A DNA stretch of 60,530 bases, from NCBI GenBank assembly GCA_028724545.1, contig JAQYCU010000059.1, positions 1 to 60,530 of the forward strand, written 5' to 3'. The notes beneath the pieces are model-generated. The model was not told the origin of the DNA and ran no database searches. It worked only from the letters and a program-made list of their open reading frames with translations. Of this stretch, positions 5,761 to 56,017 are shown piece after piece. Both the position numbers and the translations under genes were made by a program. The stretch is from a bacterium. GTDB taxonomy: Bacteria > Bacillota > Clostridia > Lachnospirales > Lachnospiraceae. The stretch's first letter is position 1. Every line of letters starts with the position of its first letter.

Positions 5761-6017
5761 CAGACATTACTGATCTTGGATTTCTCCATGTCTGTTTACT
5801 TGAGCGGAACAAGTGGTGACTGTACACTTAACCGGGCGTGTCCTGTTTCGGTTTACAATTAAACAGAACATCCCCCTCTGCATTTCGCAGAATTATACTA
5901 TTGTACAGTGACTTGTCGCCAGTTTCCTAACTTGACATTCGCTCCACGGAAAACCTGCAACCTCAATATTTTCAAGGTGCAGCAACCTCACGCTTCATCG
6001 CTATCAATGTCACAGCA
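5761..6017 (-). promoter_or_regulatory. Structured 5' leader of the S10 operon mRNA
   Basis: Between the predicted transcription start near 6017 and the rpsJ ribosome binding site the transcribed strand can form several helices. The outer long-range stem pairs 5911-5916 with 5809-5814 and 5903-5909 with 5819-5825. It encloses two hairpins, 5840-5869 (9 bp with one wobble) and 5877-5891 (5 bp). A separate 7-bp stem-loop, 5761-5794, lies just before the ribosome binding site. Leaders of S10 operons are known sites of feedback by L4 in E. coli; the same role here is inference. Confidence 0.5.
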
Positions 6018-28324: not shown

Positions 28325-29083
28325 TTACATATAAAACATTGAAAGTTTCTTCTGCTCCATTTCAGACTGCTTTTTCTGCATCATAAAACGGTATGTCTGA
28401 AGAACCTGGTTTTTCTTGAGTTCTGTTACCATTTCTGCAATATCGGTATCTTCCATCCTGCCCACGGCAGAAGTCAACTGGTAGGCAGTGTTTGTGTTAT
28501 AGCCAATGGCATATCCCAATGCATTGCTTTGTGCCCCGATACTGCTTCTGTTTTCGGATACTTTCTGAATTGCCTTATCAATGGTTTTGATGGAAAACTT
28601 TCCGGTCACATCAAAATCGGCAATTCCCAGTGCCTCTAAAGTAGCATTACCGGTATCCAATGACATTCCGGAACCGTCACTGCCTGTTGCAATGTGCATA
28701 CCGTGATTCGAGCCATCCAGAAGATTTTTGGTGTTAAACTGCGTGTTACTGGCAATATCTGAAATACCCTGCTTTAATTGCTCGATTTCACCCTGGATGA
28801 TTTTACGGTCGCCATCTGATAATGTGGCTGAGTTGGATGCTTTCACTGCCAGTTCACGCATTCGTGATAACTGGTCACCGATGCTGCTTAGTGCTGCGTC
28901 CGAAATATTCAAAACGGACTGTCCATCCTGTGCATTGCGTGTACCTGCCTGATAACCGGCTATCTGGCTTTTTCCCCGCTGGATAACGGCTGACTCTGCC
29001 GGTCCGTCAGCAGCACGCAGGATACTTTTTCCACTCGAAATCTGACTGTAGTAATTTTGACTGATACTTGAAATACTGCTCAT
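28325..29083 (-). CDS. Short flagellin-family protein
   Basis: The 252-residue protein has the D0/D1 core of flagellins. The N-terminal part has SGKSILRAADGPAESAVI, QDGQSVLNISDAALSSIGDQ, LSRMRELAVKASN and NTQFNTKNLLDG. The C-terminal part has NRSSIGAQSNALGYAIGYNT and SAVGRMEDTDIAEMVTELKK. The N-terminus lacks about 20 residues of the usual flagellin start. There are no outer D2/D3 domains. The C-terminus ends RFMMQKKQSEMEQKKLSMFY instead of the usual LLR ending. No flagellar gene is near. It may be a minor filament protein or have another exported role. Ribosome binding site GAAGGAGGTGCCGAT. Confidence 0.85.
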   Translation of the reverse strand: MSSISSISQNYYSQISSGKSILRAADGPAESAVIQRGKSQIAGYQAGTRNAQDGQSVLNISDAALSSIGDQLSRMRELAVKASNSATLSDGDRKIIQGEIEQLKQGISDIASNTQFNTKNLLDGSNHGMHIATGSDGSGMSLDTGNATLEALGIADFDVTGKFSIKTIDKAIQKVSENRSSIGAQSNALGYAIGYNTNTAYQLTSAVGRMEDTDIAEMVTELKKNQVLQTYRFMMQKKQSEMEQKKLSMFYM

Positions 29084-29238: not shown

Positions 29239-29458
29239 TGTGATGAAACAGACTTTCCTACAGCAGCACGCTCTCGCTTGGAAACAGATTTTGGCTGCTG
29301 CACACAGTTGGAGGGCTTGTGATGAAACAGACTTTCCTACAGCAGCACGCTCTCGCTTGGAAACAGACACAGTGGTGCATAAGTGGACTCAAAACGTCCA
29401 CTAAGCACCAGTGTCTGTTTGACAGCTGCTTTTAGGAAAATCTGTTTTCATCACAGCC
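29239..29458 (+). repeat. Palindromic element, type A (one partial and one full copy)
   Basis: A 50-base sequence is repeated exactly at 29239-29288 and 29318-29367. The second copy continues into a full hairpin (29316-29458, about 140 bases). Its inner arm AAACAGACAC.GTGGTGC pairs with GCACC.GTGTCTGTTT, capped by GTGGAC/GTCCAC, and its outer arm GTGATGAAACAGA pairs with TCTGTTTTCATCAC. An asymmetric internal loop contains ACGCTCTCGCT. The same element, inverted and with compensatory changes, is at 55775-55920. It contains no supported ORF. Confidence 0.9.
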
Positions 29459-29459
29459 A

Positions 29460-29644
29460 TTTACAAGTTGGCTGTTCTACTGGTTTCAGTAATCTGTTTC
29501 TGTTTTAAATCCAGAGTTTACAAATCGGCTTTTCCACTAGTTTCGGCATTTTATTTCTGTTTCAAGTCCAGCATATACAAAGTAGTTGCTCTACTGGTTT
29601 TGACATTTAATTTCTGCTTTAAATCTAGCATTTGCAAGTTGGCT
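29460..29644 (+). repeat. 57-bp tandem repeat, about 3.2 copies
   Basis: Copies start at 29460, 29517, 29574 and 29631 with an exact 57-base period. Each reads like TT(T/A)(A/G)CAA..(G/C)GCT.TTC(T/C)ACT(G/A)GTTT...TTTCTG(T/C)TT(T/C)AA(A/G)TC(C/T)AG. Because 57 is 3 x 19, a 70-codon frame (29468-29680) shows a 19-residue repeat, but it lacks an ATG and a ribosome binding site. The repeats fill the space between the type A and type B palindromes. Confidence 0.85.
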
Positions 29645-29669: not shown

Positions 29670-29744
29670 CCACGACCTGAATTGCCTGGCAGGGTTGCGC
29701 AGCGAGAGCGTGCCCTTGATAGAAAAGGGAGTCTATGCTGGCAG
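29670..29744 (-). repeat. Palindromic element, type B, shortened copy
   Basis: CCACGACCTGAATTGCCTG (29670-29688), TTGCGCAGCGAGAGCGT (29695-29711) and GATAGAAAAGGGA (29718-29730) match, in order, pieces of the complete type B element at 55478-55638 read on the minus strand. The middle of the hairpin is missing, so this is an internally deleted copy. It carries the shared ACGCTCTCGCT motif on the minus strand (29701-29711). Confidence 0.8.
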
Positions 29745-29808
29745 GTACAACAAAACAATTTCCGAAACAAACAGTTGCTTTTTCCTTCCCCCTGTGCTAT
29801 ATTGATAT

Positions 29809-29906: not shown

Positions 29907-32246
29907 ATGAAGAAAAAATATTCTATTACCGGCATTGACTGTGCTAACTGTGCAGCGAAATTAGAGCAGAAAATGAATGAACTGCCTGAAGTGAAACAGG
30001 TTGTACTTTCTTTTACTACCAGTCAGTTATATGTTGAGGCGCAAAATCCGGACAGTATTCTTCCAGAATTGCAGGCGTTGGCTGATAAAATGGAGCCTGG
30101 CACAAAAATAGAACCTTTGGCGAGAAATGTGGCAAAAAAACAGAATACAGAACATCACCACGAGCACTCGCATGACCATGAACACTGTGGCGAACACGGT
30201 CATGAACACAAGCATTGTGATGAGCATAAACGGGAACACTATGACGAGCATGAGCATTGCGACTGCCACAATAACAAACACAAGAACTGTCACGGAGGAC
30301 ATCACGACCACCAGAAATCCTGCGACTGCCACACGCATACACAGCAGGCAGAAAAAAGCAGTCCTGCGGGTATCCGGAAACTACGTCAGTTTATAGCAGA
30401 AAATTCTGACTTTATTACACTGCCTTCCGGTATTCTCTTTTTCCTGGCAGCAATGATTTTAGAGAATGTGCTGAAAATCAGTTCTTATCTGCCTGAAATT
30501 TGTTTTGTCATTTCTTACATTATTCTGGGTGGCAAAATTGTTGTAACTGCAATTAAAAATCTGTTTCGAGGAAAAGTATTTGATGAAAATTTCCTAATGA
30601 GCATTGCAACCGTCGGTGCTTTTATTGTTGGTGATTTTGCCGAGGCAGTAGGTGTTATGCTTTTCTACCGTATTGGCGAATTGTTTGAAGATATCGCCGT
30701 AAACAAAAGTAGAAAACAGATTATGGATGCCGTGGATATGCGTCCTGAAATTGTACGTCTTTATCAGGACGGAGTGGTGACAGAACTTCCACCGGAAGAA
30801 ATTCAAATCGGTGATTGCATCGAAATCCGTCCGGGTGACCGTATTCCGCTGGATGGTGTTGTTTTGGAAGGCGAAAGCCGTATTGATACTTCAGCCGTTA
30901 CCGGCGAACCTGTTCCGGTTGCCGTAAAAGCAGGCAGCCAAATCCTGTCGGGCTGCGTCAACACTTCCGGAATCTTATATCTAAAAGTTGAAAAAGCCTT
31001 AGAAGATTCTATGGTAACTCGTATTCTGGAAGCCGTTGAAAATGCAGCTGCTTCCAAGCCAAAAATGGACCGTTTTATCACAAAATTTGCACGCATCTAT
31101 ACTCCGTTTGTTGTTGTGCTGGCATTAGCAACAGCTATTGTCCCTTCTCTTTTTACAGGTAACTGGTCCTACTGGATTTATACGGCACTGACCTTTTTAA
31201 TTATCAGTTGTCCGTGTGCTTTGGTTTTAAGTGTTCCTCTTGCATTTTTTGCCGGAATCGGTGCCGGTTCCAAACGAGGGATTCTTTTTAAGGGAGGCGT
31301 TTCCCTGGAAACACTTGCTGACATCAAAGCCGTAGTAATGGATAAAACAGGAACGATTACGGAAGGAAATTTCAAAGTCGAGTCCATCACTGTCGCTTCT
31401 GGTTACACCGAGGATGAAGTGCTTTCGCTGGCAGCCAGTGCTGAAAGTGCATCAACCCACCCGATTGCCACCAGCATTTTAGAGGAAGCAAAAGTCAGAA
31501 ACTGTCTGGTAAGAAAGCCAAAAGAAGTTACCGAGTTTTCAGGCGAGGGAGTTGCTATTTCCCTTGATGACAAAAAAATTCTTTGTGGAAACCAGAAACT
31601 GTTAAACCGGTACAACATTGCTATACCGGAGGATAATACAAAAGGTGCCGGAACCGAAGTATTTGTCGCTTGTGAAAATGAATATGCCGGTAGAATCCAG
31701 ATTAACGATATTATCAAAAAGGATTCCAAAGAGGCGATTCGCGCGATTGCCTCAAAAGGTATCTACACGATTATGCTGACAGGTGACACCTACGAAAATG
31801 CGCAGGCAATTCAGCAGGCAACCGGAATCGATGAATTTTTTGCCCGCCAGATGCCGGAAGATAAATTAAACAATCTGCAGAAAATACGCGAGGAAAAAGG
31901 CAGTGTTATGTTTATCGGTGATGGCATTAACGATGCGCCGGTACTGGCCGGTGCTGATGTCGGTGCTGCAATGGGAAGTGGTGCTGATGCTGCCATAGAA
32001 GCAGCTGATGTTGTATTTATGACTTCGCGCCTGACAGCTCTCGTGGAAAGTTACCGGATTGCCAAAGCAACGGCACGAATTGCCAAACAAAATGTAATCT
32101 TCGCCCTTGCTGTCAAAGCTGCCATAATGGTTCTTGGCCTTTGTGGTATTGCTTCTATGTGGATGGCTGTTTTTGCAGACTCCGGTGTTGCTATGCTCTG
32201 TGTGCTGAACGCAATTCGTGTACTATATAAAAAATATGACAACTAA
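29907..32246 (+). CDS. Heavy-metal (Zn/Cd-type) P-type ATPase with His-rich N-terminus
   Basis: The 779-residue P1B ATPase has an N-terminal HMA metal-binding domain (GIDCANC, Cys12/Cys15). A His/Cys-rich stretch of about 66 residues follows (81-146; 23 His, 7 Cys). Then come the membrane part, actuator TGEP, CPC metal motif ISCPCALVLSVPLA, phosphorylation site DKTGTITEG and hinge GDGINDAPVLAGADVG. The CPC context and the ArsR/SmtB operator point to Zn(II)/Cd(II)/Pb(II) export (ZntA/CadA group) rather than copper. AAAAAGGAGGCTGTTT precedes the ATG. It is monocistronic, ending in a strong terminator. Confidence 0.93.
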   Translation: MKKKYSITGIDCANCAAKLEQKMNELPEVKQVVLSFTTSQLYVEAQNPDSILPELQALADKMEPGTKIEPLARNVAKKQNTEHHHEHSHDHEHCGEHGHEHKHCDEHKREHYDEHEHCDCHNNKHKNCHGGHHDHQKSCDCHTHTQQAEKSSPAGIRKLRQFIAENSDFITLPSGILFFLAAMILENVLKISSYLPEICFVISYIILGGKIVVTAIKNLFRGKVFDENFLMSIATVGAFIVGDFAEAVGVMLFYRIGELFEDIAVNKSRKQIMDAVDMRPEIVRLYQDGVVTELPPEEIQIGDCIEIRPGDRIPLDGVVLEGESRIDTSAVTGEPVPVAVKAGSQILSGCVNTSGILYLKVEKALEDSMVTRILEAVENAAASKPKMDRFITKFARIYTPFVVVLALATAIVPSLFTGNWSYWIYTALTFLIISCPCALVLSVPLAFFAGIGAGSKRGILFKGGVSLETLADIKAVVMDKTGTITEGNFKVESITVASGYTEDEVLSLAASAESASTHPIATSILEEAKVRNCLVRKPKEVTEFSGEGVAISLDDKKILCGNQKLLNRYNIAIPEDNTKGAGTEVFVACENEYAGRIQINDIIKKDSKEAIRAIASKGIYTIMLTGDTYENAQAIQQATGIDEFFARQMPEDKLNNLQKIREEKGSVMFIGDGINDAPVLAGADVGAAMGSGADAAIEAADVVFMTSRLTALVESYRIAKATARIAKQNVIFALAVKAAIMVLGLCGIASMWMAVFADSGVAMLCVLNAIRVLYKKYDN

Positions 32247-32262
32247 TTATAATATGATATAC

Positions 32263-32356
32263 GAGCCATTTTATTTTTCTATAAAATCTTGCAGAAAAAC
32301 GACAGTGTTTTTTCTGCAAAATTATAGAAAAAGTGAAAATGGCTCTTTTCTTTTTA
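32263..32356 (+). terminator. Terminator behind the metal ATPase
   Basis: A long hairpin pairs GAGCCATTTTA (from 32263) with TGAAAATGGCTC (ending 32345). Further in, TTTTTCTATAA pairs with TTATAGAAAAA and TTGCAGAAAA with TTTTCTGCAA. TTTTCTTTTT follows. Confidence 0.9.
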
Positions 32357-55416: not shown

Positions 55417-55477
55417 CTGCGAACACTTCTTTTTTCAAAATAGATTTTGGGGGATGGCGAGGGTGTTGGCTGTGGCC

Positions 55478-55638
55478 CTGTCATCATTGCTTCCCTTTTC
55501 TAGTAAGGGTACGCTCTCGCTGCGCAAACTACGCAGCAGTACATAGTATCCTGCAAAACAGGATACAAGTACTGGCGAGTTTGTAAGCACCCTTTCATAG
55601 AAAAGGGAAGCAATGATGACAGGCAATTCAGGTCGTGG
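55478..55638 (+). repeat. Palindromic element, type B, full copy
   Basis: The outer arms 55478-55502 and 55598-55622 form a perfect 25-bp stem. Inside, AAGGGT pairs with ACCCTT, CAAACT with AGTTTG and TATCCTG with CAGGATA. The internal loop on the 5' side contains ACGCTCTCGCT (55511-55521), opposite only about five bases (TAAGC). GCAATTCAGGTCGTGG (55623-55638) follows and is shared with the shortened copy at 29670-29688. Confidence 0.9.
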
Positions 55639-55774: not shown

Positions 55775-55920
55775 GGCTGTGATAGTAACAGACTTTCTGA
55801 AAGCAACTGTTAAGCAGACACTGGTGCTTAGCTGGCGTATTTTGCCAGCTTATGCACCACTGTGTCTGCTTCCAAGCGAGAGCGTGTTGCTGCAAGAAAG
55901 TCTGTTACTATCACAGTCCC
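55775..55920 (-). repeat. Palindromic element, type A, second full copy (inverted)
   Basis: Read on the minus strand it matches 29316-29458 along its whole length: GTGAT..AACAGACTTTC, CAGCA.CACGCTCTCGCTTGG, CAGACACAGTGGTGCATAAG and so on. Differences fall in pairs that keep the stem, and the terminal helix differs completely (GCTGGC/GCCAGC here, GTGGAC/GTCCAC there). The shared motif lies at 55875-55885 on the minus strand. Confidence 0.9.
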
Positions 55921-56017
55921 TTCCAAATCTGTAACTGCGAAAATCATTCTTTACAATCGCCTGCAAAATCATTATAATTAATCTAATATCTTTTTTTACA
56001 CGAAGGAGATGTGCATT

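Follow-up and report, generated by a model that had tools for sequence, protein, structure and literature searches.

A family of MITE-like hairpin elements in Lachnospiraceae with a conserved core that probably folds in one strand

MITEs of bacteria are commonly regarded as passive remnants, with the ends as their defining feature. The hairpin family described here resembles MITEs mobilised by an IS in trans in being short, mostly intergenic and, in three genomes (G014, G026 and G231), bounded by TIRs and target duplications. It differs from them in that its central module is conserved family-wide and is carried by MITEs with different ends, and in that the copies of the genome in which it was first noticed are outward-pointing doublets without recognised TIRs. 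The BOX elements of pneumococcus are composed of end modules and a variable number of middle units, a modular build that is similar by description.

REPINs and REP doublets, as presented in the relevant sections of two reports (PMC3116915; PMC3733652), share with this family their inverted intergenic hairpin doublets, high copy number and possible ssDNA or RNA structure, but their hairpins measure 20-40 nt, compared to about 145 nt here, where a complex junction with a GNRA hairpin is also found. A further difference is that Y1_Tnp is not found in several genomes rich in copies of the present family. A CGTC is seen by eye at the 3' foot of one G014 subfamily. The bcr1-bcr18 repeats of the Bacillus cereus group, in the portion of the account that treats them (PMC6542083), are lineage-restricted mobile repeats of 100-400 bp, with bcr1 at tens of copies; they are alike by description, and differ in belonging to another lineage and in possible site-specific recombination with TTTAT repeats. 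IStrons likewise join a structured RNA to a DNA transposon, but are described in the pertinent part of their source as a group I intron with an IS (PMC4227781), and the hairpin copies were scanned without any Rfam intron match. A description of this hairpin family itself was not found in the full text of open-licence papers and may exist elsewhere.

The best explanation, to which a probability of roughly 0.75 is assigned, is that the hairpins constitute a non-autonomous, MITE-like family of mobile elements of Lachnospiraceae, centred on a conserved module that folds in one strand.

Hairpins of the window and of its genome

The window is the whole 60,530-nt stretch of DNA that was analysed, contig C59 of a 2.27-Mb draft genome in 75 contigs (G000). 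Its features of interest, with scores from a covariance model (R1), are as follows.

29239..29317, no strand assigned: partial left-arm duplication of 79 nt, stopping where the full copy 1 restarts
29312..29458, minus strand (GNRA-loop strand, the proposed functional one): A-type hairpin copy 1; R1 match of 155.2 bits, E 1.7e-36, copy 1 itself being among the 30 sequences that build R1
29349..29356, minus strand: GNRA side hairpin GC-GAGA-GC of copy 1, read from the sequence
29458..29644, no strand assigned: spacer right of copy 1, with three 57-nt tandem units of 71% identity beginning ..TTTACAAATTGGCTGTTCTACTGG
29695..29747, plus strand: truncated B-type hairpin (3' arm and GNRA loop); blastn match to B positions 106-158, 85%
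55477..55621, minus strand: B-type hairpin, the outward-pointing partner of copy 2; R1 match of 90.9 bits
55622..55774, no strand assigned: spacer separating B from A in the divergent pair, taken as the interval between both matches
55775..55921, plus strand: A-type hairpin copy 2; R1 match of 157.3 bits, E 5e-37, copy 2 also being in R1's own alignment
55876..55883, plus strand: GNRA side hairpin GC-GAGA-GC of copy 2, read from the sequence

An earlier note on this DNA had proposed copies 1 and 2 as hairpins that align end to end on opposite strands. Both are present and fold far beyond dinucleotide shuffles (copy 1 at -69.9 kcal/mol, z -9.5; copy 2 at -83.5 kcal/mol, z -11.3; no shuffle among 200 folding as well in either case), and the alignment is confirmed. 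Most of the compensatory changes that it listed between the two are correct, with the exception of the change from CCTA/TAGG to CTTG/CAGA, which is only partly paired, copy 2 bearing mismatches and a G.T there. Uniqueness of the copies, which would have spoken against the note, does not hold, as blastn with the A hairpin returns 61 matches in G000; 33 of these extend over 120 or more of the 143 query bases and the remainder are partial or antisense. The neighbouring B palindrome returns 54 matches. An A-only covariance model also detects B, so that the two share one architecture, and the tally for the genome stands at about 42 A-type hairpins, eight of which are short (~81-84 nt), and 40 B-type hairpins, 82 together, once antisense matches, the weakest matches and those R1 matches that belonged to B copies are set aside.

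A and B lie within 600 bp of one another in 27 cases in G000, with gaps of 35-303 nt, and their GNRA strands point outward in all 27; the three B-B neighbours are tandem. Outward order recurs at L085, L106, L107, L205, L210, L223, L224 and L230, with L206 presenting a tandem pair. The moving unit in G000 is probably, we infer, an A-spacer-B doublet. Neither a clean TIR nor a clean target duplication was found for this unit at 22 loci, 7-bp duplication candidates with consistent geometry occurring at only 3 of them. Long-range pairing between A and B motifs was considered and rejected, given that the complementary 12-mers do not co-vary at loci read by eye. In the window, the B partner of copy 2 is matched by blastn with B positions 25-139 at 93% and by R1 at L023 1203-1347 minus, and copy 1 retains only the B fragment at 29695-29747 beyond the three 57-nt units. 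These units are weakly conserved, and similar ones are seen by eye to the right of A at L002, L014, L020 and L030.

The hairpins are unstable, with partial tandem left arms, short forms and internal deletions at several loci. Positions 29239-29288 are an exact 50-nt copy of the left arm in a tandem step of 79 nt from start to start, and partial left arms of this kind are present at other copies too. Such repeats apparently arise by slippage during replication of the hairpin, since the junctions seen by eye (L003, L007, L020) share short homologies.

Covariation, constant motifs and strand asymmetry

Covariation was assessed by counting pairs against shuffles and slid partners. In an alignment of 30 A copies made by MAFFT, with no structure fitted, 95.1% of cells pair compared to 88.5% in shuffles, 137 cells are doubly changed compared to 49 ± 5 (0 of 500 shuffles reach this), and changes on both sides occur at 26 of 59 pairs compared to 13.8, so that the covariation reported from two copies holds with more. 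The corresponding figures for a 57-row cross-genome alignment, which is biased towards the structure of the first model because it was fitted to it, are 94.7% against 56.7% of cells paired, 1328 against 405 ± 16 cells doubly changed, and 57 of 59 pairs with double changes against 52.1. Slid partners pair in 33-43% of cells. Further pair types show no excess in the 57 rows (191 against 189.5 in shuffles, 213/500), as almost all pair types are already in use at almost all positions of the outer helix.

In the model of the core, the outer helix is long and almost unconstrained in sequence, and it leads to a three-way junction that includes the side hairpin AGC-GNRA-GCGU; the internal loop CUU/UAUG, a lone bulged U and an apical hairpin closed by the loop GUAUUUU complete the module. 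Nearly invariant among the unpaired positions are the internal-loop CUU and UAUG, the bulged U and, in the GNRA loop, its G and A. Over the 57 rows, the loop G is constant in 56 and the loop A in 57, the two U residues of CUU in 57 and 55, and the U and A of UAUG in 57. A family-wide consensus drawn from 33 matches at 27 loci reads CGYCGGYACUUAG-helix-GUAUUUU-helix-CUUAUGURCCGCURCG ... AGC-GNRA-GCGUG. The GNRA loop is found in 29 of the 29 A copies tallied and in 31 of 32 B copies; outside G000, a simple pattern detects such a hairpin, with its stem paired, in 35 of 46 rows, and the remaining rows either escape the pattern or are different. Several cores carry additional material. An extra palindrome lengthens the apical helix at L107 3092-3280, L085 1992-2171 and L031 1981-2141, with a stretch CAAAAGAAA...TTTCTTTTG common to the first two, and a related insertion (GAAAATTATATGAGTGAAACGAACAGCGAG...), apparently a nested small element, occupies the apical part of the core at L186 and L199 of G014.

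The two strands are not equivalent. In outer arms aligned without RNA scoring, the GNRA strand has 67 G.U and 30 A.C mispairs, as counts of non-independent events, or 47:24 by distinct positions summed over groups. The direction is the same in every group (13:6 in G000 A, 27:15 in G000 B, 7:6 in G014, 6:2 in G026 and 14:1 in the others). This excess of G.U over A.C on the GNRA strand points to the folding of one strand, and both RNA and single-stranded DNA fit the counts. G.T is better tolerated than A.C in ssDNA as well, and d(GCGNRAGC) forms a very stable DNA structure, and for these reasons the counts do not prove RNA. Among the 12 tandem-gene contexts of G014, the GNRA strand runs against the genes in 10 and with them in 2, the split in G026 being 7 to 5, both small numbers; the 10-to-2 opposition argues against routine sense transcription in G014.

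The same observations bear on another account, in which the element is a plain palindromic MITE with an unselected fold, its arms being kept complementary by template-switch correction of quasi-palindromes. This would suit a palindromic DNA whose arms change quickly yet remain paired, and the partial tandem copies and internal deletions of an unstable hairpin suit it as well. However, such correction would be expected to erase a one-sided GNRA hairpin and constant asymmetric loops, yet both persist family-wide, and an excess of G.U on one strand is not anticipated by it, making this account unlikely.

Distribution, ends and transposases

The earlier note had called for a covariance-model search of related Lachnospiraceae, and the outcome is that the family extends well beyond the source genome. 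While blastn with A gives matches in only 1 of 27 other genomes of the genus, R1 gives matches in 23 of 28 genus genomes, own genome included, and hence structure outlasts sequence. A second model (R2), used in a family scan with seven candidates scored per genome, matched 156 of 397 family genomes and at least 137 of 334 genera at E ≤ 1e-6. A draw of 398 genomes from the phylum, which doubles as a control against a model favouring any hairpin and which has five same-family genomes among the rows listed, gave matches in 5 genomes, 4 from the same family (own genome among them) and 1 from outside it (G817, two weak matches). Phages, plasmids and viral contigs, each searched with one strict pattern or one 145-nt query, gave no match, and an origin from phage or plasmid was rejected accordingly. 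No Rfam family matches at the hairpins at gathering score (window and 18 loci from other genera), and permissive Rfam scans (801 nt and 4 loci) gave only weak matches far under the gathering scores. The window's sole Rfam match at gathering score is an S10-Clostridia ribosomal protein leader at 5913-6006 minus (RF03136, 91 bits). A TwoAYGGAY RNA (RF01731) occurs at L222 1094-1260 minus, 240 nt away from a hairpin copy.

Evidence of mobility comes from three relatives. Duplications were scored at a length of at least 6 bp with one base of slack at each end, and flanks swapped between loci served as the control. G026 contains near-identical copies of ~274 bp ending in GATGTTAGGGTCAAAAGG or a variant, with ends found in 16 of 18, and direct duplications of at least 6 bp, mostly 7-8 bp, flank 13 of these 16 (control, 6/240). 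In G231, which belongs to another genus, copies with the ends GATTAGGGTGTCAAAAG or variants have duplications in 9 of 9 cases (control, 0/72). The G014 copies of ~213 bp end in TAGG(N3)TTGCGAAAC and have duplications of 10-14 bp in 10 of 14 cases (9 of 13 distinct), against a control of 9/182 that is swollen by one element fetched twice. The MITEs of these three relatives are consequently of two kinds, one with 10-14-bp duplications and IS1182-like ends and one with duplications of roughly 7-8 bp and other ends, and since the ends of G014 differ from those of G026 and G231, a single core is carried between ends of at least two kinds. The search for target-site duplications that the note had advised was positive in G026, G231 and G014 and gave only the few 7-bp candidates described above in G000.

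The ends of the G014 elements are those of an IS1182-like element of 1.74-1.78 kb (in G014, G004, G006, G016 and G001). Ten loci of the IS1182-like transposase were found; both ends lie at a spacing of 1.74-1.78 kb in 5 of them, with 10-13-bp duplications in 4 of the 5. The transposase matches DUF772 above the Pfam cut-off and the IS1182 model and a DDE domain below theirs, as would be expected from the pieces of a frame-broken copy. Only the G014 subfamily was found to have ends in common with an autonomous element. At E ≤ 1e-15, neither G000 nor G026 contains a match to the IS1182-like transposase, and no transposase was identified for the type with 7-8-bp duplications. A pair of TIRs 2.9 kb apart in G231 was discarded as an autonomous element because it encloses an aminoacyl-tRNA synthetase-like gene (by eye). 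Two further observations were made by eye. L288 (G026:C136) is a 238-bp element with the ends of the MITEs that have 7-8-bp duplications and a different hairpin inside, and elements of G231 (L264-L268, L290) adjoin terminator-like palindromes such as GGAAAGTCCTCCGACTTTCC or sit at their foot, suggesting that hairpins are preferred as targets.

Considered as a non-autonomous MITE-like family, then, the elements are short, repeated, largely intergenic and without evident coding function, and bear TIRs and target duplications in G026, G231 and G014. DDE transposases may move the family in trans, as the IS1182-like element would for one subfamily, because ends and duplication length are shared in that subfamily. 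The fold is probably retained because folding copies spread better or are better tolerated in transcripts, and the active form of the folded strand may be RNA within read-through transcripts, with ssDNA as the less likely alternative. The note had left open a MITE- or REP-like palindrome or a structured RNA, and each of these is right in part. Mobility is borne out by the target duplications of three relatives, and a fold kept by covariation with constant motifs on one strand, which may act as RNA, is borne out as well. Given that the carrier ends differ and the middle is kept by covariation in at least 137 of the 334 sampled genera, selection appears to act on the folded strand. The need of a DNA transposon for a conserved RNA-like fold thereby becomes directly testable, and the family supplies a marker element for a dominant family of gut bacteria.

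A different route to one core in MITEs with differing TIRs and duplication lengths would be for the core to be the mobile unit itself, a structured RNA resembling a SINE that entered MITEs with different ends. In G014, direct TGCACA repeats flank the core at the place where a short MITE has a single one (L179 compared to L190, by eye), which favours such an entry. Nevertheless, the short forms L191, L200, L201, L284 and L287 retain remnants of the arms and look like deletions, and thus L190 may be a deletion too; moreover, TCAATT(T)GCACA is seen by eye in the outer arms of the one MITE kind as well as the other, suggesting descent with exchanged ends. Entry of this kind is very unlikely. A broader conjecture, in which the core is a selfish structured RNA, the bacterial counterpart of a SINE, that spreads between unrelated MITEs by end capture or by insertion at palindrome centres and is kept family-wide by selection on the RNA fold, is quite unlikely.

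Also very unlikely is a REPIN-like ssDNA element, in which paired inverted hairpins would be recognised on one strand by an HUH (Y1/RAYT) transposase. The 27 outward doublets out of 27 do resemble REPIN doublets as these are depicted in the section of the source devoted to them (PMC3116915), and the strand asymmetry and a single Y1_Tnp match in G000 are in keeping with this. However, Y1_Tnp was found in 15 of 28 genus genomes and was not matched in G014, G026, G003 and G008, drafts of 83-99% completeness with 12-24 R1 matches each. The RAYT partner suggested by the earlier note does not appear to be required, 13 of the 28 genomes being without a Y1_Tnp match, and RAYT as a necessary universal partner was rejected on the strength of copy-rich genomes in which no match was found. 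The TIRs with target duplications in three relatives also oppose such an element, as Y1 enzymes are not known to produce them.

Genomic context and insertion sites

The copies generally lie between genes. Of 30 A copies in G000, 26 are free of overlap with any ORF of at least 90 aa, and the other 4 overlap only ORFs of about 93-102 aa; the 28 A copies flanked by genes on both sides are found in 12 divergent, 12 tandem and 4 convergent settings. Among 93 copies from several genomes, 5 overlap an ORF of at least 100 aa. A cis-regulatory or host non-coding RNA family, which the strong RNA-type conservation would favour, is highly improbable and was rejected, since the 93 copies show no overall orientation bias (43 of 91 genes downstream and 38 of 85 upstream are co-directional), clusters of homologous neighbour ORFs reach no further than 5 genomes (the widest being of ABC-ATPase type by eye), and 8 of 10 homologous-gene pairs differ in the side or strand of the hairpin. 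The context is that of mobile-element leavings, not of a regulator of particular genes.

These 10 pairs, each comparing G000 with another locus, have the hairpin on different sides in 7 cases and on the same side but the other strand in 1 (60% identity), and the 2 that agree in side and strand are distant (46% and 30% identity). Conserved insertion sites were rejected on this basis; a lack of common sites is moderately supported, and a few shared sites are possible. The gene at 29907-32246 (P-type ATPase-like by eye) has a homologue in 26 of 28 genus genomes, and the hairpin lies upstream of it only in G000, with 0 of 15 loci elsewhere bearing one in the 324-1500 nt upstream, where the neighbouring gene is non-syntenic, such that this is not a strict empty-site test. 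In G004, a hairpin match occurs on the other side of this gene. To the left of copy 1, the gene at 28325-29083 minus starts with MSSISSISQNYYSQISSGKSILRAADGPAESAVIQRG and is flagellin-like by eye, and it has no tblastn match at the homologous loci L111-L125. An inverted repeat of 37 nt with a 9-nt loop and 81% complementarity, perhaps a terminator, is located at 32263-32345 of the window, directly after the ATPase-like gene.
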